A DNA stretch of 64,000 nt. Source: an uncultured Cocleimonas sp. Lineage in GTDB: Bacteria > Pseudomonadota > Gammaproteobacteria > Thiotrichales > Thiotrichaceae. A program made the position numbers and the translations under genes. Positions 46,954 to 64,000 of the stretch are shown one piece after another. A model generated the notes under the pieces. It saw only the letters and a program-made list of their open reading frames with translations, did not search any database and was not told the DNA's origin. Every line of letters starts with the position of its first letter. The stretch's first letter is position 1. Location of the stretch: contig NZ_CANLZW010000024.1 in NCBI RefSeq assembly GCF_947495625.1, positions 1 to 64,000 of the forward strand, read 5' to 3'.

Positions 46954-46972
46954 GGTTGCCATTGCGGCAACC
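46954..46972 (-). terminator. Hairpin downstream of gabD
   Basis: GGTTGCC (46954-46960) pairs with GGCAACC (46966-46972). On the minus strand it is followed by TTTATT. It lies about 105 bases past the gabD stop, beyond motif copy 10, and may be the actual terminator. Confidence 0.5.
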
Positions 46973-47002
46973 CATTGATGAATTTATATTGTTAAAAACA
47001 GA

Positions 47003-47032
47003 TAAAAAAGCGCTTATAAGTAGGGGGGTGAC
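47003..47032 (-). repeat. Dispersed intergenic G6/C6 motif, copy 10
   Basis: A6 run, GCGCTTATAAGTAG, G6 run, TGAC. On the minus strand it lies 44 bases past the gabD stop and ends in CGCTTTTTT. The hairpin arm is not conserved in this copy. Confidence 0.8.
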
Positions 47033-47076
47033 TTATGTCTTTACACACTACTTTTTCATGTGTTTATCTAATGTTA

Positions 47077-48537
47077 CTAAGATGAAACCCCCGCCATGCA
47101 GATGTATTTGGTTTCGAGGTATTCATCTAGTCCGAATTTAGAACCTTCACGACCTAATCCAGATTCTTTTACGCCACCAAATGGCGCCACTTCGGTTGAT
47201 ATAAGGCCAGAGTTAACACCTACCATGCCGTATTCAAGCGCTTCTGATACGCGCCATGAGCGTCCGATATCACGAGAGAAGAAGTAAGCTGCCAAACCAA
47301 ATTCGGTATCATTAGCCATTTGTATCGCTTCTGCTTCTGTTTTAAAGCTGAATAGTGGAGCAACCGGACCAAACGTTTCTTCATAAGTGACTTTCATGTC
47401 TGTAGTCACATTTGCAAGTAATGTTGGTTCGAAGAATGTTTTACCCAAAGCGTGGCGTTTGCCGCCGACGAGCACTTTTGCGCCTTTTCCAACGGCATCA
47501 CTTATATGGTCTTCCACTTTTTCTACTGCCGCCATATTGATTAATGGGCCTTGATTAACGCCTTCTTCAAAACCATCGCCTACCTTTAAATCACCGATTT
47601 TTGCAGCTAGCTTTTCTGCAAACTCGTCATATACACTTTCGTGTACCAAAGTGCGATTAGTACAGACACAAGTCTGACCACTGTTACGGTATTTGGAAAC
47701 CATTAGGCCTTCTACAGCGGCATCTAGATCTGCATCTTCAAAAACAATAAAGGGAGCATTTCCACCAAGTTCAAGAGACATTTTCTTCAAGGTGCTGGAA
47801 CATTGTTTCATCAATATTTTGCCAACCGCTGTTGAGCCCGTAAATGTGACTTTTCTAACAATAGGATTAGTGGTCATTTCTTCGCCAACATCCTTACCTT
47901 GTGATGCTGTAACGACACTGAAAATACCAGCAGGGAATCCTGCGCGCTCAGCTAATTCAGCAAGTGCAAGCGCTGAGAATGGTGTTGCTTCAGCTGGTTT
48001 TACCACCATCGGACAACCGGCACCAAAAGCAGGGGCTGCTTTACGCGTAATCATTGCATTCGGGAAGTTCCACGGTGTAATTGCCGCACAAACACCAATA
48101 GGTTCTTTAGTGACAATGATACGTTGGTCATTATTTTTTGAAGGAATCGTGTCGCCGTAAACGCGTTTACATTCTTCTGCGAACCATTTAATAAAAGATG
48201 CGCCGTATGCTACTTCACCTGTTGCTTCTGCAATTGATTTGCCTTGCTCCAGGGTCATTATCGCCGCTAGATCTTGCTGGTTTTCCATGATGAGATCAAA
48301 CCATGTTTCTAGAATGGCTGATCGCTCTGCGGCTGTTTTTGCTCGCCATGCAGGCCATGCATCATTTGCCGCTTCAATGGCACGTTTAGTCTCTGCAGCA
48401 CCGAGGTCAGGAACCGTTCCGATGACTTCATTATTTGCAGGGTTAGTGACTTCAAAAGTTTTACCGTCGTCAGCATCAATCCAGTTTCCGTTTACATAGG
48501 CTTGTTGGCGAAATAAGCTGTTATCGTTTAATTTCAT
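47077..48537 (-). CDS. gabD: Succinate-semialdehyde dehydrogenase
   Basis: A 486-residue aldehyde dehydrogenase that oxidises succinate semialdehyde to succinate. The catalytic Cys is in NSGQTCVCTNR, the general-base Glu in LELGGNAPF, and the cofactor segments ITPWNFPNAM and FTGSTAVGK are present. Its length is close to GabD. The ATG at 48537 gives MKLNDNSLFRQQAYVNGNW, the family start; an upstream in-frame ATG at 48591 lacks support. A related semialdehyde substrate (such as glutarate semialdehyde) cannot be excluded. The divergent LysR gene is its probable regulator. Confidence 0.88.
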   Translation of the reverse strand: MKLNDNSLFRQQAYVNGNWIDADDGKTFEVTNPANNEVIGTVPDLGAAETKRAIEAANDAWPAWRAKTAAERSAILETWFDLIMENQQDLAAIMTLEQGKSIAEATGEVAYGASFIKWFAEECKRVYGDTIPSKNNDQRIIVTKEPIGVCAAITPWNFPNAMITRKAAPAFGAGCPMVVKPAEATPFSALALAELAERAGFPAGIFSVVTASQGKDVGEEMTTNPIVRKVTFTGSTAVGKILMKQCSSTLKKMSLELGGNAPFIVFEDADLDAAVEGLMVSKYRNSGQTCVCTNRTLVHESVYDEFAEKLAAKIGDLKVGDGFEEGVNQGPLINMAAVEKVEDHISDAVGKGAKVLVGGKRHALGKTFFEPTLLANVTTDMKVTYEETFGPVAPLFSFKTEAEAIQMANDTEFGLAAYFFSRDIGRSWRVSEALEYGMVGVNSGLISTEVAPFGGVKESGLGREGSKFGLDEYLETKYICMAGVSS

Positions 48538-48618
48538 AGTGGTCTCGTTGTTGGGTTTATGCTTAATGTTGCAGTTCAGTAATATACTCATGCAGTAAAC
48601 TGTTATGAACTAAAAAAA

Positions 48619-48640
48619 TATGCACTAGTAAGCATGCATA
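48619..48640. promoter_or_regulatory. Inverted repeat between gabD and lysR-type gene
   Basis: TATGCA (48619-48624) and TGCATA (48635-48640) with a 10-base spacer lie in the 220-base divergent region. A LysR protein could bind such a site. A TATAAT -10-like hexamer (48722-48727) lies further on, 31 bases before the regulator ATG. Confidence 0.4.
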
Positions 48641-48757
48641 AATTGATAATACACAAGCGTAGTATCGCTATTAATATTAGTCAAACGAATGTTTTTTAAA
48701 TATATAATTAAAATTATTTACTATAATACGTGCTACACATTTTTAAATTGAGCACTT

Positions 48758-49681
48758 ATGGAAATTCGTCAACTTAAAACGTTAGTTAACATTCTGGATT
48801 TCGGCGGCTTTGCTGCTGCAGGGGATTCAATGGGTTTGACGCAATCTGCGGTAAGCTTGCAAATTAAAGCACTCGAACAAGAATTTGGTGAAGAGTTATT
48901 CGATCGCAGTAAAAGGCCGCCGATACCTACGGCAAGAGCTATAGCACTGGCACAAAAAGCCCGCGAAATTTTACGTTTGTGTAATGATTTGGGTGAATTT
49001 AATAAAGAGCAACTTTCAGGGTCGTTACAACTGGGTGCTCATCCGGCTGTTCAAAGAACGCTTGTTCCCGTGGCTTTGAAGCATTTACTTAAAGATCACC
49101 CAGAATTATTTATTAGTGTGACGACTGGTTTATCTGATGAGTTATCACGAAGTGTTTATCGCGGCGTATTAGATGCTGCCATCGTCAGCGAACCGACTAA
49201 ATTGCCCACTGGAATGAGCTGGAAGCCTTTCGCATCAGAAGCACTGGTTGTGATTGCGCAAAACAAAGCAAAAGGTAAGGATGCTATCGAGGTGTTGGAA
49301 TCTAATCCCTACATTCGTTTTAAAAGATCTACATGGCTGGGGGAGCTGATTAACACTGAGCTGAAAGACTTGGGAATTAAAGTGAAAACAGTGGTGGAAA
49401 CTGACCATATTGATTCTATCTGGGAAATGGTTTCATGCGGTTTGGGTGCAGCTGTTGTTCCGCAAAATATTGCAGAACACGAGATTTCAACTATGAGTAC
49501 TAACGTTGAAAAGGATAAGAAGAAAGATAACCAAAGCCCGCACGAAAAACAAAAACCACGAAACATACGAATCTATAAATTAGGACAGAATCCAATGCGC
49601 CTGACAACGGGGTTGATAGAGAGAACGGCAGATCCCAAGGCTCATTTGGTGGCGGCTTTATATAGTGCGTTACAAGATTAA
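48758..49681 (+). CDS. LysR family transcriptional regulator
   Basis: A 307-residue LysR protein. The N-terminal helix-turn-helix is MEIRQLKTLVNILDFGGFAAAGDSMGLTQSAVSLQIKALE. A LysR_substrate effector domain follows from about residue 90. The end of the effector domain contains a basic, low-complexity insert (EKDKKKDNQSPHEKQKPRN, about residues 251-269). Divergent from gabD, so it probably controls semialdehyde catabolism. Confidence 0.9.
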   Translation: MEIRQLKTLVNILDFGGFAAAGDSMGLTQSAVSLQIKALEQEFGEELFDRSKRPPIPTARAIALAQKAREILRLCNDLGEFNKEQLSGSLQLGAHPAVQRTLVPVALKHLLKDHPELFISVTTGLSDELSRSVYRGVLDAAIVSEPTKLPTGMSWKPFASEALVVIAQNKAKGKDAIEVLESNPYIRFKRSTWLGELINTELKDLGIKVKTVVETDHIDSIWEMVSCGLGAAVVPQNIAEHEISTMSTNVEKDKKKDNQSPHEKQKPRNIRIYKLGQNPMRLTTGLIERTADPKAHLVAALYSALQD

Positions 49682-49720
49682 AAAACCATACAATAAGATA
49701 ATTAAACAGGATTGATTACG

Positions 49721-50500
49721 ATGGGCGTTGAGTATAAACAAAGCATAGAACTAAGTGCTGTTCGCGGAGTTAGACACGGATTTTTCACTAAAAGTGGGGG
49801 GGTGTCATCAGGTATTTATGATTCTTTGAATTGTGGCCCAGCATCCGCCGATTCTTTAGACAATGTCATTGAAAACCGCTGGCGAGCAATCTCTGCACTG
49901 GGCTTACAAGAATCTCAATTATTTGGACTGAATCAAATTCACAGTACAAAAGTCCATACCATCGATAAAAAAAGCTCGGACGATTATCACCCTGGTGATG
50001 GTTTAGTCACCAAAGAAAAAGGAATGGCATTGAGCGTTCTGGGTGCGGATTGCGCTCCTGTTCTGTTTGCAGATAAAACTGCAGGTGTTATTGGTGCAGC
50101 TCATTCTGGCTGGAAAGGCTCAGTCTCTGGAATCATCGAAAGCATGGTTGAGAGTATGTGCGTCATTGGAGCGAGTAGAGAAAACATCCACGCCTGTATC
50201 GGCCCAACTATTCACCAGAAATCTTATGAAGTACGTGAAGATTTTATTCAGCAACTCGAATCATTAAGTGGCTTTGCAACAGAGCAATTTATCAAAAAAG
50301 GGGAGAAAGAAGTGCAGGGACAATTCTTCTTTGATTTACCCGCGTATCTTTTAGAACAATGCAAACGAAGCCAGATACAGGGTGAGAACCTGGGTTTAGA
50401 TACTTACGAGTTAGACGATTCTTTTTTCAGCTTTCGTCGAAATACCCATCAGGGATTAACTGAGTATGGGCGACAGATCTCGGTAATTTGCCTCGCTTGA
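49721..50500 (+). CDS. pgeF: Multicopper-laccase-fold protein PgeF/YfiH
   Basis: A 259-residue YfiH/PgeF (laccase_domain) protein, implicated in peptidoglycan editing and in purine nucleoside phosphorolysis. FTKSGGVSSGIYDSLN, NQIHSTKV, LGADCAPVLFAD and AAHSGWKG hold the zinc-binding His/Cys residues. The ATG at 49721 is preferred over an in-frame TTG at 49712. The codons for KSGGVS (49789-49806) happen to resemble the dispersed G-rich motif. Confidence 0.9.
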   Translation: MGVEYKQSIELSAVRGVRHGFFTKSGGVSSGIYDSLNCGPASADSLDNVIENRWRAISALGLQESQLFGLNQIHSTKVHTIDKKSSDDYHPGDGLVTKEKGMALSVLGADCAPVLFADKTAGVIGAAHSGWKGSVSGIIESMVESMCVIGASRENIHACIGPTIHQKSYEVREDFIQQLESLSGFATEQFIKKGEKEVQGQFFFDLPAYLLEQCKRSQIQGENLGLDTYELDDSFFSFRRNTHQGLTEYGRQISVICLA

Positions 50501-50815
50501 TTGTTTTTCGCTAACACTGCATGGGTTTTTCGATCTTCACTTAAATAGCGCATTAGCTTGTTAAAATATGTGTCATTAAAATGAAATATTGGAAATATAT
50601 TTCGCAAAATTATATTTAAGCAAAAATATATTCTGTTTATCGCAGTTTATAGTATAAAAAACACAAGAAGATTCTGTGATTATTTTACTAATATTTACAC
50701 TGAAAAATGATGACTCTGATTAAAGTCTTAAAAAGATACCCAGTTTCAAACCGGATACAGATTTTCTAAGACACGCAGTTATTACACTTAAACGATTTAC
50801 TATGAGATTCAAGCT
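50501..50815. other. 315-base intergenic region
   Basis: AT-rich DNA upstream of dgcN, on the same strand as pgeF. A small inverted repeat GACT-CTGATTA-AAGTC is near 50710-50728. I see no gene, motif copy or convincing terminator; it should contain the dgcN promoter. Confidence 0.5.
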
Positions 50816-51814
50816 ATGCATATACAAACTCCTTACTTATTATTCCTTGGCGATGCCGCTGACCCACTTGCAGCTAAAGTAGCTCAAGGTATTTGTGACT
50901 GGCGTCCAGAAAATGCATTAGGACAATTCAGAATGGAAGGCTGTCAAGCTGATCTGGGTTTGACTGATATGAGTATTGATGAAGCTGTTGAAGCAGGTGT
51001 TAAAACATTAGTTATTGGTGTTGCCAATCGTGGTGGCGTGATTTCTGAATTATGGATAGAAATCTTACGTGAGGCATTATCTAAAGGTTTGGATGTTGCT
51101 GCAGGTTTGCACAATAAACTGAATGACATCCAGGAACTTGTTAACGATGCTGAAAAATATGGTCGTACTTTATTCGATGTACGCCACCCTGTAGCAACTT
51201 ACCCTATAGCTGTTGGAGTAAAACGTACTGGAAAAAGATTGTTGCCAGTGGGTACTGATTGTTCTTGTGGAAAAATGTATACCGCATTAGCGATTGAAAA
51301 AGAACTACGTCAACAAGGAGCTAATGCAGATTTTAGAGCGACAGGCCAGACAGGTATTTTAATTACGGGTGAGGGCGTCTCTATTGATGCAGTTATCGCA
51401 GACTTTATCGCAGGTGCAGTAGAAACATTATCACCTGAGAATGATGTAGATCATTGGGACATTATCGAAGGTCAGGGATCTTTATTCCATGCTTCATATT
51501 CTGGAGTAACAATGGGTCTAATCCACGGTTCACAACCCGATGCATTGGTTTTATGTCACGAGCCAACACGTACTCATATGCGTGGATTACCGACATTCAG
51601 TTTGCCTGAATTAGATGAGTGTATGGATGCCTGTTTGCGTGCAGCAAAACTTACAAACAAAGATGCTAAGTTTGTGGGTATCTCAGTGAATACCTCTAAA
51701 TTATCTGAAGAAGAAGCTACTGAGTATTTGGCAAAAATTGAGAAAGAACATGGTTTGGTCGCGGTAGACCCAGTGCGTCAAGGTGTATCACGCATTGTTG
51801 AGCAATTAGTTTAA
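50816..51814 (+). CDS. dgcN: DUF1611 protein, N-acetyltransferase DgcN
   Basis: A 332-residue DUF1611-family protein. The N-terminal half is Rossmann-like, and the C-terminal half has a P-loop-like GTDCSCGKMYTALAI and a conserved GQTGILITGEGVSIDAVIADFIAGA. In marine proteobacteria the dgcN-dgcA pair is described as converting D-glutamate to N-acetyl-D-glutamate (DgcN) and then racemising it (DgcA). The order dgcN-dgcA-aminotransferase supports that identification here. The stop overlaps the dgcA start by one base. Confidence 0.85.
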   Translation: MHIQTPYLLFLGDAADPLAAKVAQGICDWRPENALGQFRMEGCQADLGLTDMSIDEAVEAGVKTLVIGVANRGGVISELWIEILREALSKGLDVAAGLHNKLNDIQELVNDAEKYGRTLFDVRHPVATYPIAVGVKRTGKRLLPVGTDCSCGKMYTALAIEKELRQQGANADFRATGQTGILITGEGVSIDAVIADFIAGAVETLSPENDVDHWDIIEGQGSLFHASYSGVTMGLIHGSQPDALVLCHEPTRTHMRGLPTFSLPELDECMDACLRAAKLTNKDAKFVGISVNTSKLSEEEATEYLAKIEKEHGLVAVDPVRQGVSRIVEQLV

Positions 51815-52806
51815 TGTCTGCATCGACAGTAACATTATCTGCCAAATCTGAATCCTTTCCTATCGAAGGCCGTTTTACTATCTCACGAGGTAGTAAGACA
51901 AAAGTGGATGTTGTCATCGTTGAAATAAATGATGGCGAACATACAGGCCGTGGCGAATGTGTTCCTTATGCTCGTTATGGGGAATCGATTGATTCTGTTA
52001 TCGAACTGATCATGTCATTAGAAGATGATGTGAAGAATGGTTTAGATAGAGAAAGCTTACAGCGTAAATTACCTTCCGGTGCAGCAAGAAATGCCTTGGA
52101 TTGCGCCTTTTGGGATCTTGAATCAAAGCAGAAAAATACACGTGCCTATGATTTAGCTGGGATAGCGGATATGAAAACGCTTACGACTGCATATACCTTA
52201 TCTCTAGAAACACCTGAGAAAATGCGGGAGTCGGCAGAAAAGAATGCTCATCGTCCATTATTAAAATTAAAACTGGGTGGAGAAGGTGATATTCAGCGTG
52301 TGCAAGCCGTTCGTATTGGCGCTCCAAATTCACGTTTGATCGTAGATGCCAATGAAGGATGGACAGCTGAGTCCTATCAAAAACTAGTCCCTAGGTTACA
52401 TGAGCTGGGTGTTGAGATGATAGAGCAACCATTTCCTGCGGGTGATGATGAGATTCTTAAAACGCTAGATCGCCCAATTGCCTTATGCGCAGATGAGTCA
52501 TGCCATGATCGTGAATCTTTAAAAGACATTATCGGCAAGTACGACATGATCAATATCAAACTGGATAAAACCGGTGGTTTAACTGAAGCGTTAGCTTTAA
52601 AAGAAGAAGCTGAGGCTAACGGTTTAAGCATTATGGTTGGCTGTATGTTAGCGACATCTCTAGCAATGGCTCCTGCCATATTAGTCGCACAAGATACGGC
52701 AATTGTTGATTTAGATGGTCCGTTGTTATTAGCCAGTGATAGAGAGAACGCATTACGCTTTGATGAAAGTGAATTATTCCCACCAGAGCCAGAACTCTGG
52801 GGATAA
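51814..52806 (+). CDS. dgcA: N-acetyl-D-glutamate racemase DgcA (enolase superfamily)
   Basis: A 330-residue muconate-lactonising-type enolase-superfamily enzyme. LKLKLGG carries the catalytic KxK, VDANEGW, EQPFPAGDDE and ADESCH give the metal-binding Asp/Glu, and NIKLDKTGG holds the second catalytic Lys. It could be taken for a dipeptide (L-Ala-D/L-Glu) epimerase, a close relative. Coupling to dgcN favours DgcA. Confidence 0.87.
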   Translation: MSASTVTLSAKSESFPIEGRFTISRGSKTKVDVVIVEINDGEHTGRGECVPYARYGESIDSVIELIMSLEDDVKNGLDRESLQRKLPSGAARNALDCAFWDLESKQKNTRAYDLAGIADMKTLTTAYTLSLETPEKMRESAEKNAHRPLLKLKLGGEGDIQRVQAVRIGAPNSRLIVDANEGWTAESYQKLVPRLHELGVEMIEQPFPAGDDEILKTLDRPIALCADESCHDRESLKDIIGKYDMINIKLDKTGGLTEALALKEEAEANGLSIMVGCMLATSLAMAPAILVAQDTAIVDLDGPLLLASDRENALRFDESELFPPEPELWG

Positions 52807-52863
52807 CACATTAAATACGCTAGTAGTAAGAACCTGGCAATAAGAACATAGGAAGTATGAAAA

Positions 52864-53712
52864 ATGAGTAGAATCGTTTATGTAAATGGCGAGTATGTCC
52901 CAGAAGAAGATGCCAAAATATCTGTATTTGATAGAGGCTTTCTATTCGCCGACGCCGTTTACGAAGTTTCATCAGTAATCAATGGCAAACTAATTGATAA
53001 CGAAGGCCATATGGGGCGTTTAAAGCGTTCTATGGATGAACTGGAAATGCCACATCCAGCCACATCCGAAGAGATTGAGACCATTCAAAAAACCTTGATC
53101 GATAAAAATGATGTTGTTGAAGGTTTGGTTTATTTACAAGTGTCACGTGGTTCTCAGGATCGAGATTTTGTTTACCCTGAAAACACTAAACCTTCTTTAG
53201 TAATGTTCACTCAGAAAAAGAATTTGCTGGAGAGTCCACAGGCTAAAGTGGGTATAACGGTCATCACTTCACCGGATATTCGCTGGCAGCGTCGAGATAT
53301 TAAAACCGTATCGTTATTAGCCGCGAGCATGGCTAAAATGCAGGCAAAAGCTGCTGGAGCTGATGATGCATGGTTAGTTGAAAATGGCTTTGTGACTGAA
53401 GGCAGTTCTAATAATGCCTATATCGTAACTCAAGAGGGAACTGTTGTTACCCGTCATTTGGGTAATGAAATTCTTGCAGGTATCACGCGTAAATCAGCAC
53501 TTAGACTCGCTGAAGAAGAAGGCATTAAAATCGAAGAAAGATCTTTCACTGTCGACGAAGCCTTGGCGGCTGCTGAAGCATTTGTAACGTCTGCCACCAC
53601 TTTTGTAACGCCAGTAGTAGCAATTGATGGTCAGAAGATTGGTGATGGTACGCCAGGTCCGATAGCGAAGAAACTGCGTGCAATCTATATTGACGAAGCG
53701 ACAAAAGCTTAG
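52864..53712 (+). CDS. D-amino-acid aminotransferase, class IV
   Basis: A 282-residue PLP-dependent fold-type IV aminotransferase. YVNGEYVPEEDAKISVFDRGFLFADAVYEV is the family start. The PLP lysine is expected in RDIKTVSLLAASMAKMQA, and EGSSNNAYIV is typical of D-amino-acid transaminases. It follows dgcA by 57 bases on the same strand. The likely role is interconversion of D-alanine or other D-amino acids with D-glutamate, feeding the dgcN-dgcA pathway. Confidence 0.88.
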   Translation: MSRIVYVNGEYVPEEDAKISVFDRGFLFADAVYEVSSVINGKLIDNEGHMGRLKRSMDELEMPHPATSEEIETIQKTLIDKNDVVEGLVYLQVSRGSQDRDFVYPENTKPSLVMFTQKKNLLESPQAKVGITVITSPDIRWQRRDIKTVSLLAASMAKMQAKAAGADDAWLVENGFVTEGSSNNAYIVTQEGTVVTRHLGNEILAGITRKSALRLAEEEGIKIEERSFTVDEALAAAEAFVTSATTFVTPVVAIDGQKIGDGTPGPIAKKLRAIYIDEATKA

Positions 53713-53738
53713 TCTAATATTTACACCGGAAATTGACC

Positions 53739-53777
53739 AATAACTGAGGCTACTTTTTAACAGTAGCCTCAGTTATT
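53739..53777. terminator. Terminator-like hairpin after the aminotransferase gene
   Basis: AATAACTGAGGCTACT (53739-53754) pairs with AGTAGCCTCAGTTATT (53762-53777), 16 perfect pairs with a seven-base loop. T runs are weak on both sides. It lies between the convergent aminotransferase and DsrE-like genes. Confidence 0.8.
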
Positions 53778-53780
53778 TAC

Positions 53781-53825
53781 TTATTCAGTTACTCAACTAC
53801 TCAGTCAGCTACTCAGCTATTCAAC
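53781..53825. repeat. Short imperfect tandem repeat
   Basis: Five imperfect units of TAYTCARC (about 8 bases; one expanded to 12) run into the 3' end of the DsrE-like gene. The stop codon of that gene lies within the array, so slippage here could alter the C-terminus. Confidence 0.55.
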
Positions 53826-54347
53826 GACCACTAAAGTATAACCCAGTTCCTGATACTGTCTGATTTGCGTTGGACCTTGTGGGGTAGTGGTAATGTATTC
53901 AGGAAAATCTTCTGGGGTAACGCCACGCCAGTTAGCATGAGTTTCACAAATGTATACTGGCACGTCTGCCGCGACCAATCGTTGAACCAGTGTGTGTGAT
54001 TTCATCGATTTGCTGGCTTTGTTCTTGGTTAGTTTAAATTGTTCTGCACCATGTGATACAACAGCAATATCAAGTTCAGGAAATTTAGCTTGAAGTTGTT
54101 TTTTGTACGTTTCAATTTTTTCTAATGCATTCGGAAGATAGTCATTATTTTCACTTCCAATCAATTCAAAGACTATGCCGTCTGGTGATTTTGTATGGCT
54201 GAGTATTTCAGCAATTTGCAAGCTATCCTGAGTAACACTCGTTGTCTTATCATTGTTAGCAAAAACATTCGTAGATGCGATAAAAAGTGCGCTTAACAAT
54301 GAGAACGTAAATAAGAAAATAACTTTAAGTTTATGAGTTTTTAGCAT
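53817..54347 (-). CDS. Secreted DsrE/DsrF-like protein
   Basis: A 176-residue protein with a signal peptide (MLKTHKLKVIFLFTFSLLSA, ending near NVFA). The mature domain has DsrE-like features: KSPDGIVFELIGSENN, LDIAVVSHGAEQFKL, and PVYICETHANWRGV with a Cys. Cytoplasmic DsrE proteins relay sulfur; exported forms like this are common but not characterised. The ATG at 54347 has AGGAAG six bases upstream. A longer upstream in-frame reading lacks one and would bury the signal peptide. Confidence 0.8.
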   Translation of the reverse strand: MLKTHKLKVIFLFTFSLLSALFIASTNVFANNDKTTSVTQDSLQIAEILSHTKSPDGIVFELIGSENNDYLPNALEKIETYKKQLQAKFPELDIAVVSHGAEQFKLTKNKASKSMKSHTLVQRLVAADVPVYICETHANWRGVTPEDFPEYITTTPQGPTQIRQYQELGYTLVVVE

Positions 54348-54520
54348 TATATCTTCCTGAGTTATCCTGAAATTTATCAAAATATACTTGAATAAAGAAG
54401 CCGTTGAGATTAATAGTTTTTGAGTACTCAGCAACAGCTTCGAACTTTGTACGTATGAATTAGTATTTTAGATGTATTTTGTTTAAGTAACTTTGATTTT
54501 GTTGCATTCAGTTAAATAAA

Positions 54521-54548
54521 TACACCCCCCCACTTATAAGCCGTTTTT
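54521..54548 (+). repeat. Dispersed intergenic motif, copy 11
   Basis: The C-rich strand is on plus: CAC, C7 run, ACTTATAAGCC, T5 run. The T of CCTACTT is replaced. It lies in the divergent region between the DsrE-like gene and the 1110-residue gene, about 130 bases before the latter, so no gene ends here. Confidence 0.7.
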
Positions 54549-54679
54549 AAAAATTGATAGTTAATTAAGGTATTTCAATAGGTTAACTAAATGAAAAGTT
54601 ACTTTATATTTAGTTAAGAGATAGAGTAAGGCACAAATGTAATCTATCAAATTTTATAAGCTGACTGTAAAGGTACTAA

Positions 54680-57600
54680 ATGACCAACGAAGAAAAAAAA
54701 TTAGATTTTATAGAAAGTATTTCAACAAATACAAAATACTTTTTCACTAATAAAAAAGAGCGTTTATACAAAGTTCTTGTTGTCACAAGGTCACAGAAAC
54801 AAAAGAAAGAAAGCTATATAGTAACGTTGATACCCAATGTGCCTTTTCAGATTTCTCCTCTGGATTTTGAAAAAATTAATCCCATTACTTTAATAAAGTC
54901 AGCTTCTAAAGAACAGCTATATGATGAACTTGACAAGTTCTTTGAAATATCATTTTCGACTGGATATTCGGAGATATTTTTAGGCACAGATGAGTATTAT
55001 TATGAGGAAGATGAATATATATCAGAGATAACAGCAGGTGTCCTTTATGTGGATTATGATCCTGAAAGTGCGACAGCTATTTATACTATTGAAACAGCAA
55101 AAAATCATTCGATCCGTTATGAAGTTTATGAAACAGCGATTAAGGCCAGTAAAGATAAGATAAAAAATAATACATTTATCTATGAAGACTTTTATACCTT
55201 GTGGTATCCCAATCTTGAAGCATCAGAACAGGCTATGAGTTCTGTATTAGCGGTTAAAGAAACGAAATCATATACTTTTGAATCTTTTGCCAGCGAAGTT
55301 AGAAAGATTGATGAACATGAGCAGATCAGGTTCGAGCCAGAAGGCATTATTTTTGAGCATTTAGTCAAAACAGAATCATACCTCTCTGAAGACATTTCAG
55401 AGCTTAAGCTTCCGATACCTCAAAGTGAATTTAAACCGTTTGATGAAACGGATATTGAAGAAGGGCGGCTATATTTCTGGATTAAAAAGAGCGCGGAATC
55501 AATTTCAAAATCAAAAATTAATTACTTCGTATTACAGAATCGTAAAATAAACGGTTACGTCGTTGGGTCTTGCAAACTTGGCGGGTTTAGAAGTCATTAT
55601 CGGGACAACAGTCTGATGACATATTCTATGTCTGATGAAATTCAACATTTAAGAAATAGAGTGAGTAAAGGCTTTGTAGAAATATCTCAAGAAGAAATCA
55701 TTGAAATTTTGACAGCAAAAAAAACAAACGAAATTTATGCTCAAACTATCGATAATTCGGTTTATATGGATCAGCATGTTTATGATTTATATGAAAATAT
55801 GGTGCAGCATTGGGCAGAAGGTCCAGATAAAGAAGATTTCACTTATCACACTCTTTTCTTTGACTCGAAAGAAAAACGAGACAGCTGGTTTAAGGAAGAA
55901 CTAGCAAAGCAGAAAAGCTATGATCTTGACGTTAGCAGTAAAAAAGAGCGTTCTGCGCTTTTACAGCATTATAAATCTGTAGATGCATTAAATAAAAAAT
56001 ATAAAGAGCAGAAATTTGAAAAGGAAGCGCTGTTAAAACAGCACCCAGGATTGAAAGAAAAATTCAGCGATAAGAACTACAAATCCTTTATGAAGTATTC
56101 ACCCTTAAAAGTGATAGAGGGGAATTTAGTTGTTGATGAATCTTTGCGCTTAAACGCCGATGAAACCTCGCTATTTATTACGGGTGATTTAATCGTCAAT
56201 GGAACTTTGATGGCAGAAACTGAAACGTTTTTTCAAAGCAATACTTTTCTAATTGTTGCTGGAAATGTACGTGTAGATAATTATGTTCAAAATAAAGGTT
56301 TTGCACTCATACTGTTCGCACAGGATTTTCTGGTTAATAATTTTACCTATTTACCGGCTGCTTCGAGATCATGGTTTATAGAGGTAGCAGGTAATCTGCA
56401 GACTGATGTACTGATTCATGCAAAAGATCATAGTGTTAAGGGCCTGGATGAAAAAATGATATTTAATTATGAATACAGTACAACGAATAAAAATGTATTC
56501 GTTGATGGTGTTTTAAATGAAAAAAATAGGGTTGATGAAGATTCACTTTTTAATCTATTGAAGCAGGACAAAAGTCTTCTAAAAGATAACCTCAATCAAG
56601 ATCAGATTGATGATGACTTACTCTTAACTGCCTTTAAAGGGTATTTACGAAACTGGCATTCACTTTACTATAACTTCGCTGGTTTTGAATTACAGGAACT
56701 TGAATTCGGAGAACACTTTGGTCATTACATTGAGAGTGATCAGATAGTTGAAGACAAACGTCATGGCACTGGGATGTATCTTATGAGCCATGATGACTAT
56801 TCATTGGAGTTAGTAAAAGCAGATAAACCAATAATTGGAGATCATGTAGCTTCAAATGACCTAGCCTATCGTTTCTTCTGGATAATGTGGACTTTTTCAA
56901 ACTGGAAGCACAGAAGTGATGGTCCCATGGATTATTGGAAAAACGTTGAAGCCATTGATACCCGCTATAACAATGGTAAACCGTATTTCAAAGGCGATCC
57001 GCATTTAGCCTTGTATTGGATAATGCATTTTGGGTTGCTCGAAGATGCGCGGTTTGAAGAGATACAATCATTGATGAAGGATAGTGATCACCCCTTAATC
57101 AAGGGTGCGCTGCTATTCTTTGCTGAACTCCAAAAAACAAAATCCTATCCAATTAAAATTGATAATAAAAACAACACGACACTGTTTAATCAAAGAATAA
57201 TCCATCATAAAGTACAGATAAAAAAAGCGATGTTGCCAGAAGATGATCACGTCGAATATACGATGTCACAATTTGAAAAGCAGCCGGATAGAGTGCTTGA
57301 GCTCATCAATGATCTTCACAAAAACAAGGAATGGGATAAGGTAAATGACTATCTAAATAATCACCCTTATCAGCCTGGATTCTCATTTCTTCGTATATTA
57401 ACGACAAAAGAAAACGATAAAAGTAAGTGGCAGTCACTTTTTGTGAAAGAAGCTGAAATGAATAAAAATACTTGGAAGAAGAGTTATTTACTGGTGCCCA
57501 TGTTCGATATGTTTTACGAAGATTTAGGGTATGAAGACACAAATACAGCAATTTCAATTGTATTAGAAAGAGCGTCAAATATTAGTAATGAAAAAATATA

Positions 57601-58012
57601 CGTAAAAATGGCACAACGTTTACAACAGATGCCGAAGCCTGAGAATTCTGAAACAACTTTCGAAGATCGTCTTGAAGGTTGTACAAAGGATAATTTTGAT
57701 TTTCAGACATTTATAAATAAAAGCAGTGATATTGAAGCAGTCGATAAAATACTGTTTATACGAGCGTGTATTGCAAAAGACTTATTTAGCGAAGAATTTA
57801 AACAAACTACCGTGACACCATATTTATTAGTTTGGTATATGGCGGATAAAGATTTTTACGACATTGATCAAGGGCAAAAACAGATACAGATTGAAGAGGT
57901 TATTGCGCATTACAATCTGAGTGAAGCTGACTTTCATGAAAAATATAAAACGTTAGCAGAGAATGAAAGACTTTCATTCTTTTTAGCGATTAAACAATAT
58001 TTTAAAGCATAG
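54680..58012 (+). CDS. Large protein of unknown function, 1110 residues
   Basis: A 1110-residue protein, rich in Lys, Glu, Asp and aromatic residues, with no signal peptide or membrane helix, so probably cytoplasmic. Three parts are visible. Residues 1 to about 400 have mixed folds with no family I recognise. About 400-465 is a charged helical, possibly coiled-coil stretch. About 470-610 is a beta-rich run of short hydrophobic strands (KVIEGNLVVDESLRL, SLFITGDLIVNGTL, FLIVAGNVRVDNYV) reminiscent of a bactofilin-like parallel beta-helix. The C-terminal 500 residues are mostly helical. It stands alone between motif copies 11 and 12. Confidence 0.75.
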   Translation: MTNEEKKLDFIESISTNTKYFFTNKKERLYKVLVVTRSQKQKKESYIVTLIPNVPFQISPLDFEKINPITLIKSASKEQLYDELDKFFEISFSTGYSEIFLGTDEYYYEEDEYISEITAGVLYVDYDPESATAIYTIETAKNHSIRYEVYETAIKASKDKIKNNTFIYEDFYTLWYPNLEASEQAMSSVLAVKETKSYTFESFASEVRKIDEHEQIRFEPEGIIFEHLVKTESYLSEDISELKLPIPQSEFKPFDETDIEEGRLYFWIKKSAESISKSKINYFVLQNRKINGYVVGSCKLGGFRSHYRDNSLMTYSMSDEIQHLRNRVSKGFVEISQEEIIEILTAKKTNEIYAQTIDNSVYMDQHVYDLYENMVQHWAEGPDKEDFTYHTLFFDSKEKRDSWFKEELAKQKSYDLDVSSKKERSALLQHYKSVDALNKKYKEQKFEKEALLKQHPGLKEKFSDKNYKSFMKYSPLKVIEGNLVVDESLRLNADETSLFITGDLIVNGTLMAETETFFQSNTFLIVAGNVRVDNYVQNKGFALILFAQDFLVNNFTYLPAASRSWFIEVAGNLQTDVLIHAKDHSVKGLDEKMIFNYEYSTTNKNVFVDGVLNEKNRVDEDSLFNLLKQDKSLLKDNLNQDQIDDDLLLTAFKGYLRNWHSLYYNFAGFELQELEFGEHFGHYIESDQIVEDKRHGTGMYLMSHDDYSLELVKADKPIIGDHVASNDLAYRFFWIMWTFSNWKHRSDGPMDYWKNVEAIDTRYNNGKPYFKGDPHLALYWIMHFGLLEDARFEEIQSLMKDSDHPLIKGALLFFAELQKTKSYPIKIDNKNNTTLFNQRIIHHKVQIKKAMLPEDDHVEYTMSQFEKQPDRVLELINDLHKNKEWDKVNDYLNNHPYQPGFSFLRILTTKENDKSKWQSLFVKEAEMNKNTWKKSYLLVPMFDMFYEDLGYEDTNTAISIVLERASNISNEKIYVKMAQRLQQMPKPENSETTFEDRLEGCTKDNFDFQTFINKSSDIEAVDKILFIRACIAKDLFSEEFKQTTVTPYLLVWYMADKDFYDIDQGQKQIQIEEVIAHYNLSEADFHEKYKTLAENERLSFFLAIKQYFKA

Positions 58013-58102
58013 TTATATTATAAAATTGAAGCCGTTTTATGTGTAACGAGTTAGAAAGAAACGCTAAGAAAAACAAAATCACAATGCATGTTAGTTAGAA
58101 AA

Positions 58103-58132
58103 TGACACCCCCCTACTTACAGGCCGTTTTTT
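58103..58132 (+). repeat. Dispersed intergenic motif, copy 12
   Basis: GACACCCCCCTACTTACAGG followed by CCG and a T6 run, C-rich on plus. It overlaps the 3' end of ung: the TAA stop of ung (58117-58119, minus strand) and its last Gly-Leu codons lie within it. For the plus-strand 1110-residue gene it is in terminator position. Confidence 0.8.
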
Positions 58133-58812
58133 GGTAATTGCCAATCAATTGGTGTTTCACCAAACTCTTCTAAATATGCATTGGTTCTAGAAAAAGGCTT
58201 GCTCTCAAAAAAGCCACGATACGCGGATAACGGAGAGGGGTGAGCTGATTTAATCACAAGGTGTTTTGAGGTGTCGATAAACACGCCTTTTTTCTGTGCG
58301 TAAGCGCCCCAGAGTATAAAAACCACGTGTTCTTTTTCTTCATTGATGGTTTGTATGATGGCATCGGTAAACGTTTCCCAGCCTTTGCCTTGATGGGAGT
58401 TTGCGTTTCCTTCTTCAACAGTGAGTACGGCATTGAGTAATAACACGCCTTGTTCTGCCCAGCTTTGTAAATAACCGGTATGGCTATTATCTATACCAAG
58501 ATCACTTTGTAACTCTTTGTTTATATTCAATAAAGATTTGGGGAGTGGCTTAACCTCAGGTAAAACAGAAAAGCAAAGTCCATGAGCATGACCGGCTGTA
58601 GGATAGGGGTCTTGACCTAGAATCACCACTTTGAGTTTTTTAAATGGCATGCTATTTAATGCGTTAAACCACAAAGAAGCAGGTGGAAGAATGTTTTTAC
58701 CCTGAGCTTTCTCATTGTGAAGAAATTGCTTTAATTCCTGCATATAGGGCTTATCAAATTCTTCACCGATTTTGTCTAACCAGCTTTGTTCAAGTTTAAT
58801 ATTTGTATTCAT
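58117..58812 (-). CDS. ung: Uracil-DNA glycosylase, family 1
   Basis: A 231-residue family-1 UDG that removes uracil from DNA. The water-activating motif GQDPYP (Asp68) is at residues 66-71, and the leucine-loop motif HPSPLSA is near residue 190. Length and motifs match Ung. Its last codons lie in motif copy 12. It follows the alpha/beta hydrolase gene by 14 bases. Confidence 0.96.
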
Positions 58813-58826
58813 GATCAGGGGTTCAC

Positions 58827-59669
58827 TTATTGTTCAATTGATTTTTCATTCAAAATTTCTAAAGAACGTTTTATATATGGCCAGGATACAGTATCCGGCA
58901 TGACCATTTCAAAATGACCAATATCAGGAATGATCTGCAGGGTGTATGGATCTTGTTGCTGTTCTAATGACGTTTGTAAGTAATCAACAGGTACAATAGG
59001 GTCAAGTTCACCTACTAAATGAATCTGAGGGATGCCGCCTAATGAAATGTGATGCGGTGATCCTTGCTTGTATCGTTCGGGATAATCAGCAGCTAAACCG
59101 CCCATTAGTTCCTCGCATGCACCACGACAAATATTCTGCTCTACACCACGTTCTAAATCAGGTATTCCTGCTAATGATACAACAGCAGAGATGTTTAACG
59201 CATTTGGCGTATATAACTCGCTATCAATCGATAAATTTGATCTGGCGGCCAACCATAAAGCCAGATGCCCACCGGCAGAATGCCCCATGGTAATGATTTT
59301 AGTTAAGTCCAGAGTGTATTGTTCTGCAATGGTTTTCAGGAAATCGGTGCCTTTTGCAACGTCCGTAAAGGTCGTAGGCCAGCCACCGCCATTACCTAAA
59401 CGTCGGTATTCTAAATTCCATACTGTGTAACCTAAGTCAGTTAATGACTGACAAAGTTCTCCTAATTGCAACAGACTGTGTGCAGCGCGCCAGCAACCAC
59501 CGTGAAGCAATACAATCACCGGTGATGATTTATATCTTCCATCGGTATTTTCAGGAAGATATAAATCACCAAACTGTTCTGTATGATCACCATAGTGCAA
59601 GCGTACGTCTGATTTAACTGATTTTAGTTTGATGTAATCATCTACTGTTTTGAGTATAAGTCTTGTCAT
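58827..59669 (-). CDS. Alpha/beta hydrolase (kynurenine-formamidase-like)
   Basis: A 280-residue alpha/beta hydrolase. The oxyanion motif HGGCW (His56-Trp60) and nucleophile elbow GHSAGG (about residues 151-156) are typical of the HGGxW group that includes kynurenine formamidase and carboxylesterases. Asp (ELDPIVPV) and His (DIGHFEM) complete a plausible triad. There is no signal peptide. No other tryptophan-degradation gene is nearby, so the substrate is open. Confidence 0.82.
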
Positions 59670-59744
59670 AATCTAGATAGACTCTGATTCAGTTTCAGAA
59701 ACTTCGACATAAAATCATGATATAACATATTAGGTGTTTAAAAT

Positions 59745-62609
59745 TTAAGCTTTGATTTTAGGTCGGTTTTTTTGAGAGCTAAAATTCCGTAAAATTAGTT
59801 TTTCTATTTCAACCATAATTAATACCGAAGAAGTAACCAGGATAATACTTAGCCATGTTGCTAAATCAATCGCAGTGGTGCCAAATAATGACTGCAAGGG
59901 TGGGAGGTAGGTAAATCCAAGCTGAAGCAAAATTAGCAGCCCAACTGCAATTAGTACATAACGGTTTCCAGTTAAGCCATGCCAATTTAAAATTGGTGCG
60001 GTGATGTATCGCACATTGAATAAATAGAATATTTCAAATAATACTAAGGTATTCACCGCAACGGTTCGAGCGTATTCGATATTCATGCCTTGATCCAGCT
60101 GCCAGAGGAACATACCGAAAGTACCCAGCATCAAAATTATCGATACAAATGCGATACGCCAAATTAAATACCGATTTAATAATGGTTGTTTTGGATCGCG
60201 AGGAGGTCGTTGCATAACACCTTTTTCAGAAGGCTCAAATGCAAGTGTTAATGCTAATGTGACCGCTGTGATCATATTCACCCAAAGTATCTGAACTGGA
60301 GTTAATGGCAACTCGTGGAAGCCAAAAATAATAGCTGCCAATATTACTAAAGCTTCACCACCATTGGTCGGTAGGATAAATAAAATGGCTTTTTTGAGGT
60401 TGTCGTAAATGGTTCGACCTTCTTCAACAGCATGAATTATGGAGGCGAAATTATCATCTACCAATACCATCTCTGAAGCTTCTTTTGCTGCTTCAGTACC
60501 ATTTTTACCCATTGCCGTTCCCACATCCGCGCGCTTAAGAGCTGGTGCATCGTTAACACCATCACCGGTCATGGCAACAATCAGGCCTTGTTCTTGTAAT
60601 AAGCGTACCAATTTCAATTTATGCTCTGGGTTAACCCGTGCAAAAACATCAATACTTAGCACTTTCTGGCGCAATTCATCTTCACTCATGAGTTCTAGTG
60701 CTTGACCTGTTAAAACCTCATCAGTATTTACAAGTTTTAATTGTCGAGCGATGGCTAAAGCAGTGGCACCATGATCTCCAGTGATCATTTTTACGCGAAT
60801 TCCTGCGTCAGAGCATGTTTTTACTGCTTCAATAGCCTCCATTCGCGGCGGATCAATCAAACCGAATAGGCCTAACATGGTTACACCGTTTTCAACATCG
60901 TTATAACTCAATGAATGGTGTTCAGTTGGGACTTTCTTTACCGCTATAGCAAGCACCCTTTGGCCTCGCGCTGCCATCGATTCAATTTTTGCCAGCCAGT
61001 ATTCCGTATCAATAGCGCTATCGCCATTGATTGTTCTCTGTTGATCGCACATTTCCAGAACCCTTTCTGGTGCGCCTTTTAGATAAATAAACGCTTTGTC
61101 GTTATGGCTATGATGCAGAGTAGCCATATAACGGTGTTCTGATTCAAATGGAATCAAATCAGTGCGTGGATTATTCTTAGACTCAACCGCGCTATCCAGA
61201 CCCGCTTTCATAGCAGCGACAATCAAGGCCCCTTCCATGGGATCTCCATGCACTACCCAGTCATTATTGACTTGCTCCAGTGAAGCATCGTTACATAACA
61301 TCGAGGCTCTCAAGCATTCTTTAAACAATGGATGATTATCTAACTCAATTGTCTTGTTATTGACGGTTATCTCTCCATGTGGATCATATCCTGAACCTTC
61401 AAAATCAAACAAACAAAGAGGTGTCGCGATGGAGCGCACCATCATTTCATTACGCGTCAAAGTCCCTGTTTTATCTGAGCAAATTACAGATACTGCACCT
61501 AATGTTTCTACTGCGGGAAGTTTACGAATTATTGCATTGCGTTTTGCCATTTTTTGTACACCGATAGCCAGTGTAATGGTCATAATGGCAGGTAAACCTT
61601 CTGGAATTACTGCTACTGCGAGACTCACAGAAGCAAGAAACATCTCTGACAATGCAAAATTACGCCAATAAATACCAATAAGGAAATTCAACGTAGCAAT
61701 CATCAAAATAGCCAATGTTAGCCAGCGTCCAAACTGCGCCATCTGCCTCAATAGTGGAGTGGTTATGGTTGTTACATCACTAACTAAAGTACTAATATTA
61801 CCCAATACGGTATTGGCGCCAGTTGCAACCACTATGCCGGAACCCTTTCCATGGGTGACAATTGTTCCGGAAAATGCCATATTGATGCGGTCACCAATGA
61901 CACTATTTTCTGAAACAGTCTGGGTCGATTTTTCTACGGCGACTGACTCGCCTGTTAATGCTGCTTCCTGTATTTGTAAGCCTTTGACACGAAATAGACG
62001 TAAGTCTGCCGGTACTTTATCCCCTGATTGCAATAAGACAATGTCACCTGGCACTAATGCATCCGTTTGAATTGTATTTTGTCGGCCATCACGCACAACC
62101 ATGGCTCTGGCGGATAGCATCTGGCGGATAGCGCGTAACGCGTCTTCCGCCTTGCCTTCCTGCACAAAGCCTATGGCAGCATTAATTATAACGACAGCGA
62201 AAATTACACTGGCATCGATCCAATGTCCTAAAATCGCCGTGACTAGGCCAGCACCCAATAGAACATAGATAAGAACGTTGTGAAACTGGTACATAAACCG
62301 GATAATTTGGCTATCCGTTTTTGGTTCAGGGAGCTTATTTTCACCGTATTGATCCAGCCTTAATTCAGCTTCATTTTTTAATAAACCTGTCGGTGTAGTA
62401 TCGAGATACTCAAGAACTGTTTCATACTTTTCACTATGCCAGTTCTTTGCTGGATGATCTAATCCAGAAGCATCATTACTTAGTTGAATTTTCGCTTGGA
62501 TTTTTCGCCAGACAAATACCACAAAGATGAGTAATACGACAATAAAGCCGATGACAAGAAACCATTCAAATGCGCTTAAATTGTAAGCTTGTGTAACCTG
62601 GTGAAACAT
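59745..62609 (-). CDS. P-type cation-transporting ATPase (type II)
   Basis: A 954-residue P-type ATPase. It has an extra N-terminal membrane helix (about residues 15-33) before the cation_ATPase_N domain. Motifs in order: EAALTGES, VAVIPEGLPA (the PEGLP ion-site helix of IIA-type pumps), DKTGTLT with the phosphorylated Asp, KGAPE, and MTGDGVNDAPALKRADVG. It resembles Ca2+- or Na+-type pumps rather than heavy-metal pumps; the ion cannot be decided. Two palindromes lie just upstream. Confidence 0.9.
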   Translation of the reverse strand: MFHQVTQAYNLSAFEWFLVIGFIVVLLIFVVFVWRKIQAKIQLSNDASGLDHPAKNWHSEKYETVLEYLDTTPTGLLKNEAELRLDQYGENKLPEPKTDSQIIRFMYQFHNVLIYVLLGAGLVTAILGHWIDASVIFAVVIINAAIGFVQEGKAEDALRAIRQMLSARAMVVRDGRQNTIQTDALVPGDIVLLQSGDKVPADLRLFRVKGLQIQEAALTGESVAVEKSTQTVSENSVIGDRINMAFSGTIVTHGKGSGIVVATGANTVLGNISTLVSDVTTITTPLLRQMAQFGRWLTLAILMIATLNFLIGIYWRNFALSEMFLASVSLAVAVIPEGLPAIMTITLAIGVQKMAKRNAIIRKLPAVETLGAVSVICSDKTGTLTRNEMMVRSIATPLCLFDFEGSGYDPHGEITVNNKTIELDNHPLFKECLRASMLCNDASLEQVNNDWVVHGDPMEGALIVAAMKAGLDSAVESKNNPRTDLIPFESEHRYMATLHHSHNDKAFIYLKGAPERVLEMCDQQRTINGDSAIDTEYWLAKIESMAARGQRVLAIAVKKVPTEHHSLSYNDVENGVTMLGLFGLIDPPRMEAIEAVKTCSDAGIRVKMITGDHGATALAIARQLKLVNTDEVLTGQALELMSEDELRQKVLSIDVFARVNPEHKLKLVRLLQEQGLIVAMTGDGVNDAPALKRADVGTAMGKNGTEAAKEASEMVLVDDNFASIIHAVEEGRTIYDNLKKAILFILPTNGGEALVILAAIIFGFHELPLTPVQILWVNMITAVTLALTLAFEPSEKGVMQRPPRDPKQPLLNRYLIWRIAFVSIILMLGTFGMFLWQLDQGMNIEYARTVAVNTLVLFEIFYLFNVRYITAPILNWHGLTGNRYVLIAVGLLILLQLGFTYLPPLQSLFGTTAIDLATWLSIILVTSSVLIMVEIEKLILRNFSSQKNRPKIKA

Positions 62610-62634
62610 TTTAATACCTTTTAGTACCTAATAA

Positions 62635-62646
62635 TTCGTATACGAA
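62635..62646. promoter_or_regulatory. Perfect 12-base palindrome before the P-type ATPase gene
   Basis: TTCGTATACGAA lies 26-37 bases upstream of the ATPase ATG. Its position makes it a possible operator for a dimeric regulator. Confidence 0.4.
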
Positions 62647-62689
62647 ATTTTTGGAGGCGGTGATTATATCGATCAGGAAAATTTAGCGT

Positions 62690-62711
62690 ATCCTTAATTA
62701 ATTTTAAGGAT
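62690..62711. promoter_or_regulatory. Inverted repeat before the P-type ATPase gene
   Basis: ATCCTTAA (62690-62697) and TTAAGGAT (62704-62711) are perfect eight-base arms with a six-base AT spacer, 81-102 bases upstream of the ATPase ATG. Confidence 0.4.
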
Positions 62712-62859
62712 GCACATAATTTTAATCGACCGATAATAACTGTTTATTCTTAATAATATTCTTAGAATGTATAAAGGCTAAAGAGGTTGATCAGTAGAGC
62801 TTGACGACTAAGGTCAGAAGTGTGTGGTTTTATTAAGGAGTTTCTAATTCAGTTAAATG

Positions 62860-62888
62860 AAAAACCACCTAAAAGGTAGGGGGTGTCA
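62860..62888 (-). repeat. Dispersed intergenic motif, copy 13 (variant)
   Basis: GAAAAACCACCTAAAAGGTAG followed by GGGG and TGTC. On the minus strand it lies about 70 bases past the CPA2 antiporter stop. An extra G after AAAAG makes ACCT-AAA-AGGT self-paired, and the G run is shorter than in the other copies. Confidence 0.65.
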
Positions 62889-62956
62889 TTCTGCTTGGTT
62901 TTTATATTAAAACTTTTCCCTAAATAGTACGATACTAAATAAAATATAATATCCAA

Positions 62957-64000
62957 CTAAGATTCAGCCTGTAATAATTCACCATATCGCCCGTAATACC
63001 ACTTCATTACAAATGGCGGTAATAATGTAGTAAGGGCAATTACCATTATCATACCGGCATAGATTTCATTGCTGAATATGCCGCTTACTCTTCCAAGTTC
63101 TGCAAAAATAATGCCCACCTCACCACGAGGAATCATCGCCATACCAATCATTACCCGCGTTGCCATATTTTCATTGATAAAAAAAGGGCCTATCATTTTA
63201 CCAATAATAGCCACTAGCACGAGCGTCAATGAAAACCCCCAGATAAATGGTGAACTCCAGTCAATCTCGTGAAGGTTGAGTGATAGGCCCACAAAGACGA
63301 AGAATATAGGCGTGAATAGCTGAACAATAGGTCTCATTTGATCTTCGATGCGATTCGCAAATTGCTCATCGGTATTTAAAGCAATACCCAATGGTAAAAA
63401 GAAGCGTCGTGAGAGTGCCAGACCTGCAGCAAATCCACCTAATAATTCAGGTGCACCCAAAGCGTGCGCTAACCAGGCAAAAAATAATACTAAAGATATG
63501 ACAGTTGTTGGGAGTAATCCTGGGACCAGGCTAACGTTATCAAAACGCCTGATTACCAATGAAATCAGCTTAGCTGCAATCGGTGCCAATACAAAAAAAG
63601 CGCCTACAAATATAAGTACTTTACTTGCATTAAAAAAGCTCACTCCTCCACCGGAAGAAAACTCATAGAGTAGTGCCAGCAATACAACGCCCAATATATC
63701 ATCCAGTACGGCAGCACCCAGTACAATTTGTCCTTCGGTTGAGTGCTGTCGATGCAGGTCCGAAAGAACACGTACAGTAATCCCTATACTTGTCGCCGTA
63801 ATCGTGCCACCAATAAATAAAGACACCAGCACTGATAGGTCAAAAATCCAATAAGACAGTGAAAAACCCATTAGCAATGGCAATATAAACCCTGAGATTG
63901 CAACAACTGCAGACTTTGCGCCAGTTTTTACAAGACGTTTCAGATCGGTTGCCAGACCTACTTCAAACAGTAATAAGATAATACCAATTTCAGCCATTAA
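62957..64000 (-). CDS. CPA2 family cation/H+ antiporter (5' partial)
   Basis: The C-terminal 347 residues or so of a monovalent cation:proton antiporter-2 protein; the frame is open through the window edge, and the Met at 63997 is internal. FEVGL, the ion-site pair in VLDDILGVVLL, GFAAGLALSR and MIPRGEVGIIFAELG are family signatures. About ten membrane helices remain. The protein ends EILLQAES-like, with no RCK/TrkA-N domain, so it is a short, NapA-like form. Confidence 0.88.
   Translation of the reverse strand, partial: LMAEIGIILLLFEVGLATDLKRLVKTGAKSAVVAISGFILPLLMGFSLSYWIFDLSVLVSLFIGGTITATSIGITVRVLSDLHRQHSTEGQIVLGAAVLDDILGVVLLALLYEFSSGGGVSFFNASKVLIFVGAFFVLAPIAAKLISLVIRRFDNVSLVPGLLPTTVISLVLFFAWLAHALGAPELLGGFAAGLALSRRFFLPLGIALNTDEQFANRIEDQMRPIVQLFTPIFFVFVGLSLNLHEIDWSSPFIWGFSLTLVLVAIIGKMIGPFFINENMATRVMIGMAMIPRGEVGIIFAELGRVSGIFSNEIYAGMIMVIALTTLLPPFVMKWYYGRYGELLQAES

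Follow-up and report, generated by a model that had tools for sequence, protein, structure and literature searches.

A 1110-residue Cocleimonas protein whose predicted beta-helix centre very probably belongs to an unnamed domain family

Among the immunity components listed by Zhang et al. 2012 (PMC3482391) are ankyrin, leucine-rich (LRR) and HEAT repeats, together with SUKH domains, and the polyimmunity loci and proteins in their account combine SUKH, ankyrin and further units, usually without a toxin gene. The portions of that article available to us make no mention of bactofilins, WGR domains or beta-helices. Bactofilins (PF04519), also compared here, are short-strand beta-helices similar in length to the centre of the protein that we describe.

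That protein, 1110 aa long, is encoded in a stretch of 64,000 nucleotides (the window; contig NZ_CANLZW010000024.1, positions 1 to 64,000) of the 4.6-Mb, 89-contig genome of an uncultured Cocleimonas sp. We propose, with a probability of roughly 38% for the statement as a whole, that it is a cytosolic modular recognition protein with a beta-helix centre of the type we call GDL, gripping a partner in the manner of a polyimmunity protein. The features discussed below are as follows, in window coordinates.

53814..58819, no strand: putatively exchanged block, 93% identical between the window and Cocleimonas flava, with flanks at 75-81%
54523..54548, plus strand: copy of a genome-wide motif, 0 mismatches
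54680..58012, plus strand: gene (P0001) for the 1110-aa protein, an open reading frame (ORF) with a C. flava ortholog (L003:6001-9363) at 93% amino acid identity
54680..56074, plus strand: N-terminal region, residues 1-465, without a family match
56075..56629, plus strand: GDL beta-helix domain, residues 466-650, core about 476-605, by HMM match and strands in the model
56630..58009, plus strand: C-terminal region, residues 651-1110, without a family match, probably helical in a low-confidence model
56849..57154, plus strand: residues 724-825, weak and only suggestive match to a Streptomyces SMI1_KNR4/WGR protein ('DPHLA.YW..H')
58106..58131, plus strand: copy of the genome-wide motif, 0 mismatches, overlapping the uracil-DNA glycosylase stop codon

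The gene, its surroundings and its ortholog

The ORF opens with an ATG, contains zero internal stops and is the longest of the 55 window ORFs of at least 120 aa, the runners-up being 954 and 926 aa long, so that the first-pass annotation was right to call it the largest gene in the window. It was also right in calling the gene monocistronic: the gene stands alone, with a DsrE-like ORF to its left (53817..54434) and a uracil-DNA glycosylase ORF to its right (58117..58812), both on the minus strand. Its four nearest neighbours, which are these two, an alpha/beta hydrolase and an aminotransferase, include neither a toxin gene nor an immunity gene, and no immunity operon or array is found there. 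An Rfam scan of positions 46000-63000 gave no match. Because no stretch of the protein is hydrophobic enough for a membrane helix (maximum 19-residue hydropathy mean 1.17) and its N-terminus is not hydrophobic, it is probably cytosolic. BLASTP detected no internal repeats within it.

The nearest named relative, C. flava DSM 24830 (family Thiotrichaceae), carries an ortholog with 77 differences in 1110 aligned residues and a single 10-residue length difference, and both the nearest gene neighbours and the local gene order are equal in the two genomes. The few relatives and low GC of the gene would fit a long ORF that is spurious or in decay and serves no function, but a frame that stays open in two species across those differences argues the other way, and we consider this explanation very improbable.

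The block of about 5 kb at 53814-58819 spans the DsrE-like gene, the 1110-aa gene and the uracil-DNA glycosylase gene. Within it, the longest run identical to C. flava is 563 bases, codons 431-690 of the 1110-aa gene differ at 2 of 780 bases, and identity stands at 96-98% over a stretch that crosses the downstream intergenic piece. This pattern speaks for recent exchange between lineages rather than for coding constraint, and the comparison points to a recent exchange of the block between Cocleimonas species. The GC content of the 1110-aa gene (34.0%) is the lowest among 36 selected window ORFs, the next being 35.2%; however, its third-position GC (0.304) and codon fit lie inside the range of the other ORFs compared, and being ordinary in these respects the composition is no demonstration of foreign origin. 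The gene was found in 2 of 144 relatives, with the window genome counted and the other carrier belonging to the same genus, and it was not found in the other ten same-genus genomes searched. This occurrence, the lowest GC and the apparent recent exchange would together back an accessory character for the gene.

The full-length protein matches no characterised family, as the first-pass annotation had said, although its centre turned out to be part of a wider unnamed domain family. Nothing significant was retrieved from Pfam, NCBIfam, PADLOC, PHROGs or PDB sequences, and the first three of these revealed no known immunity domain; the best family-library rows (CBM53, E 0.17; phrog_14747, E 4.1) and a PDB chitinase chain (E 1.8) are at chance level. 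Plasmids and phages gave no match at E 1e-5. When the plasmid search was relaxed to E 10, only four near-identical Streptomyces places appeared (best E 0.6), and phages and viral contigs yielded no match in scans that detect close relatives only. A two-sequence full-length profile matched only the window genome below E 0.02 among 398 phylum genomes (best other 0.023, unconvincing) and only the two known carriers among 63 order genomes. With the centre alone as query and a limit of E 1, 32 of 369 class genomes gave a match, its own included (best other E 0.008); a BLASTP re-check of the plus-strand frames of those loci returned 11 rows, with a best E of 7.7e-5 in this small set, that lack the strand pattern and that we judged to be chance. 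The class, phylum and order genome sets overlap with one another.

The two motif copies that had been noted as bracketing the gene are indeed present without mismatches, but they belong to a genome-wide repeat and are not tied to the gene. The bracketing motif occurs 8 times in the window at up to 3 mismatches, where 0 copies are expected, and the related pattern GTCACCCCCCTACTTWYAGGC has 15 loose copies there (for instance at 3034, 10717, 13187, 21727, 38094, 47005, 54523 and 58106). At up to 2 mismatches, GTCACCCCCCTACTTWYAGGC is found 545 times in the window genome (225 forward, 320 reverse) and, elsewhere in the genus, 413 times in genome G003 (299/114), 125 in G004, 36 in G008 and 4 in G011, whereas the remaining seven genomes of the genus and 18 more distant genomes contained no copy. 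As a control, the reversed pattern had 0 copies in the five copy-bearing genomes and one match in each of two distant genomes. On contig C2 of G003, all copies among the matches listed lie on one strand, and the strand bias may reflect a replication-linked signal, an uptake-like sequence or a dispersed repeat. At 41097-41134, two motif copies face each other as an inverted repeat.

The central beta-helix and the GDL domain

The region of about residues 476-605 is marked by short strands (EGNLVV, FITGDLIVNGTL, LIVAGNVRVDN and FIEVAGNLQTD) that are identical in C. flava. The name GDL, coined here, refers to the recurring Gly-Asp-Leu. Our starting probe for relatives, which we composed ourselves, matched a 223-aa Deinococcus ficus protein (WP_027463983.1) and a Variovorax reading frame, and the D. 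ficus protein used as a query retrieved Streptomyces members and 1 of 321 class genomes (G063). The four-member GDL HMM, all four natural members of which were found without the window protein, matched the 1110-aa protein over residues 465-646 with 48.1 bits (E 2.1e-13, 4,003 targets), while the best of 4,000 shuffles reached 9.9 bits. An alignment including the window protein was used to add two members, one from the same genus (G007; E 1.1e-16, gene cut off by the contig end) and one from elsewhere in the phylum (G618; E 9.1e-7). With the window protein left out, a nine-member HMM gave the 1110-aa protein 42.8 bits and an hhalign probability of 95.5%, and leave-one-out versions gave between 25.7 and 48.1 bits. 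The controls for this HMM stayed at or below 10.0 bits for 30 bactofilins, 5.6 for 216 other ORFs, 7.8 for 3,000 plain shuffles and 17.4 for 1,000 five-residue block shuffles. On the strength of these profile scores we are highly confident that the centre of the 1110-aa protein belongs to the GDL family. Several members share a 'YN.G ... DH' tail, of which the window protein keeps DH (KDHS) without YN.G; other members also miss parts of it.

The occurrence of GDL is sparse. It was found in 2 of 239 phylum genomes (the window's own included), in 4 of 57 relatives, three of them (G000, G003 and G063) already in the alignment or almost so, and in 12 of 72,556 plasmid records searched with a Streptomyces query whose own record is included. 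The GDL part of the scanned members matches no Pfam or NCBIfam model (for two further members, no Pfam model), and where a member has its own annotation, this names a hypothetical protein or the ankyrin repeats. We found no description of the domain among the matches listed from the open-licence PMC literature on bactofilins, WGR and beta-helix or leucine-rich repeat architectures. Within that literature, no match joins bactofilin with immunity protein and toxin, or with ankyrin, and none joins polyimmunity with WGR and helix; the matches listed for either WGR domain or polymer-forming cytoskeletal all concern PARPs. The G007 protein (L087:2-604) shares 52% identity with the D. ficus protein over about 65 residues, which is possibly a sign of transfer between phyla.

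AlphaFold2 modelled the whole 1110-aa protein with very low confidence (mean pLDDT 29.3), and it is this model that makes the C-terminal region probably helical. Residues 455-612 were also modelled by themselves, with no alignment. The best of these five models reached a mean pLDDT of 58.3, a pTM of 0.59 and a pLDDT of about 80 across model residues 21-60, and its short strands form a ladder between residues 476 and 577; the remaining four range from 48.6 down to 29.3 in mean pLDDT. Foldseek returned no match for the centre at E 0.001. Its first rank was a urease accessory complex (E 0.048), followed by MinC and bactofilin, and MinC, bactofilins, hexapeptide transferases and antifreeze proteins all appear within its first 50 rows; the TM-scores are mostly low (bactofilin BacA 0.51 by target length). 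VIA-align 2 placed the Thermus bactofilin 6ria on top with a Z of 8.2, superposing 84 residues at an rmsd of 2.4. The IcsA autochaperone region (8.1) ties with it, as do a phage tailspike (7.6) and further structures, and the program itself warns that Z values of this order, near 8, are often seen. By homology and by a model of moderate confidence, then, the centre is predicted to be a beta-helix, as the first-pass annotation had supposed from the strands; the four-member HMM score, the strands in the model and the beta-helix matches in the PDB all agree with it.

The same annotation had called the centre bactofilin-like, and the predicted fold does resemble that of bactofilins, with 6ria as its tied top match, but the sequence does not: Pfam PF04519 had no match in the 1110-aa protein up to E 10, and an HMM built from 30 bactofilins scored 1.0 bit against it (hhalign 3.5%). 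The GDL and bactofilin profiles compared with each other gave an hhalign probability of 71.7%, a distant likeness. One could imagine a cytoskeletal scaffold that builds filaments by end-to-end stacking of its beta-helix, like a bactofilin, and recruits clients through its flanks, a role with which the top structural match and the profile likeness would agree. Against it stand the scores of the 1110-aa protein itself, the tie with IcsA at a Z that is common and the fact that the window genome has a separate bactofilin of its own (a 131-aa frame), and we regard such a scaffold as unlikely.

The company of GDL domains and the C-terminal lead

In other bacteria, GDL is found joined to repeats. G063 has a GDL and LRR protein of 613 aa, and Streptomyces plasmids encode proteins of 758 and 780 aa with GDL, LRR and TPR parts (by Pfam scan for the first). 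In loci L089, L091, L122 and L124 the gene immediately upstream of the GDL gene encodes an ankyrin protein, which carries a second GDL domain near its C-terminus (nine-member HMM, E 1.1e-9 in L091, 2.1e-9 in L124 and 8.8e-6 in L089; in L122 E 1.7e-4, only with an HMM that includes the window protein), and in L123 two short hypothetical genes occupy this position. By annotation, a gene of the SMI1/KNR4 family, which is noted for immunity to toxins, precedes the ankyrin gene in L091 and L124, and the L124 copy has a Pfam match at E 1.1e-8. The annotations of L089, L122 and L123 show no such gene, and the preceding gene there is instead of the LuxR family (L089) or an AAA ATPase (L122 and L123). 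Since the Streptomyces GDL loci are near copies of each other, they represent few independent events. The annotation around the Deinococcus GDL gene contains no immunity genes, and inspection by eye only saw no immunity neighbours for the GDL genes of G063 and G618. We would like to note that G063 also has large WGR proteins at L071 and L072, one of them with two WGR domains.

The plasmid hit at E 0.6 pairs residues 724-825 with a 1377-aa Streptomyces protein (P0007), annotated 'WGR domain-containing protein', whose domains are SMI1_KNR4 and WGR. A GDL gene (GDL E 2.6e-11) lies 619 bases beyond the P0007 gene, after two small genes, and it is notable that two parts of the 1110-aa protein match two genes of one Streptomyces locus; L035 is a near copy of it. 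Compared pairwise, residues 724-825 and P0007 gave a BLASTP E of 1e-7, an hhalign probability of 76% and 15.8 bits, against at most 5.4 bits in 5,000 shuffles and at most 14.8 in 5,000 ten-residue block shuffles. A reverse search of 143 class genomes ranked the 1110-aa gene first (E 0.002), with two matches at 0.003-0.004 in another genome. With a C-terminal profile, a chance locus (L037) scored 13.6 bits versus 12.3 for the P0007 ORF, and 13.6 bits was also the best non-self score among 3,284 ORFs of the fetched loci, which held no convincing counterpart of the C-terminal region. The likeness, a short stretch around DPHLA.YW..H, is suggestive but falls short of proving homology. For the N-terminal region, direct comparisons covered the G007 protein and WGR domains. 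The idea of a WGR domain (PF05406) there found no support: Pfam found no match up to E 10, and an HMM of 36 WGR-bearing class-genome ORFs gave no match or negative bits (hhalign below 1%).

A possible role in recognition and its precedents

In the mechanism that we propose, the central GDL beta-helix is flanked on one side by a long N-terminal region and on the other by a C-terminal region that is probably helical and repeat-like, and the rigid beta-helix and the helical part would offer surfaces for holding on to a protein partner. Protein recognition is a task that would suit a rigid beta-helix flanked by repeat-like parts. The mode of gripping would resemble that of polyimmunity proteins, which are presumed to capture toxin domains that enter the cell and make them harmless, and which have no toxin gene beside them. 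The immunity part of the proposal rests on the company kept by GDL relatives, and we put forward an immunity-type role for the 1110-aa protein as a tentative suggestion.

Alternatively, the protein could act inside the cell as a scaffold or regulator specific to its lineage, with a partner of another kind (one in sulfur metabolism, for example) and no connection to conflict. The gene stands by itself next to a DsrE-like gene, keeps the same order in C. flava and has a normal third-position GC, all of which would fit such a scaffold; on the other hand, it was not found in the other ten genomes of its genus that were searched, nor in the other relatives, and the company of GDL elsewhere includes repeats and SMI1/KNR4. 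We think this conceivable, at odds somewhat short of even.

Returning to protein recognition, a broader reading would make GDL a recognition module of bacterial conflict systems that has escaped description so far and is recombined with ankyrin, LRR, TPR and SUKH/WGR partners in at least three phyla, with the Cocleimonas protein as a giant single-gene version and its 5-kb block as traded DNA. We find this reading doubtful, and what we describe is an unnamed domain family in a suggestive setting. If GDL is a recognition module, its description would give a handle on such proteins and on the plasmid loci with SMI1/KNR4 and ankyrin genes. C. flava DSM 24830, a strain with a collection number, carries the gene, so that its function could be tested.

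Among the systems compared, the bactofilin has a short-strand beta-helix like the one predicted for the window protein, where it is part of a 1110-aa chain. P0007 has SMI1_KNR4 and WGR domains, neither of which is detectable in the window protein. The GDL proteins of D. ficus, Variovorax and Streptomyces (e.g. WP_328774778.1) have a central domain homologous to that of the window protein, but they are about 219-780 aa long, as opposed to 1110 aa here, and some have LRR, TPR or ankyrin parts. Polyimmunity proteins, as Zhang et al. 2012 describe them, would be the best precedent for the Streptomyces GDL carriers. The window protein differs from them in having no recognised immunity domain and in lying outside an immunity gene array, and because these two defining features are lacking we do not call it a polyimmunity protein. 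Nevertheless, it may work like one: it is large and modular, there is no toxin gene nearby, and some Streptomyces plasmids carry its GDL relatives next to genes for SMI1/KNR4 and ankyrin proteins.
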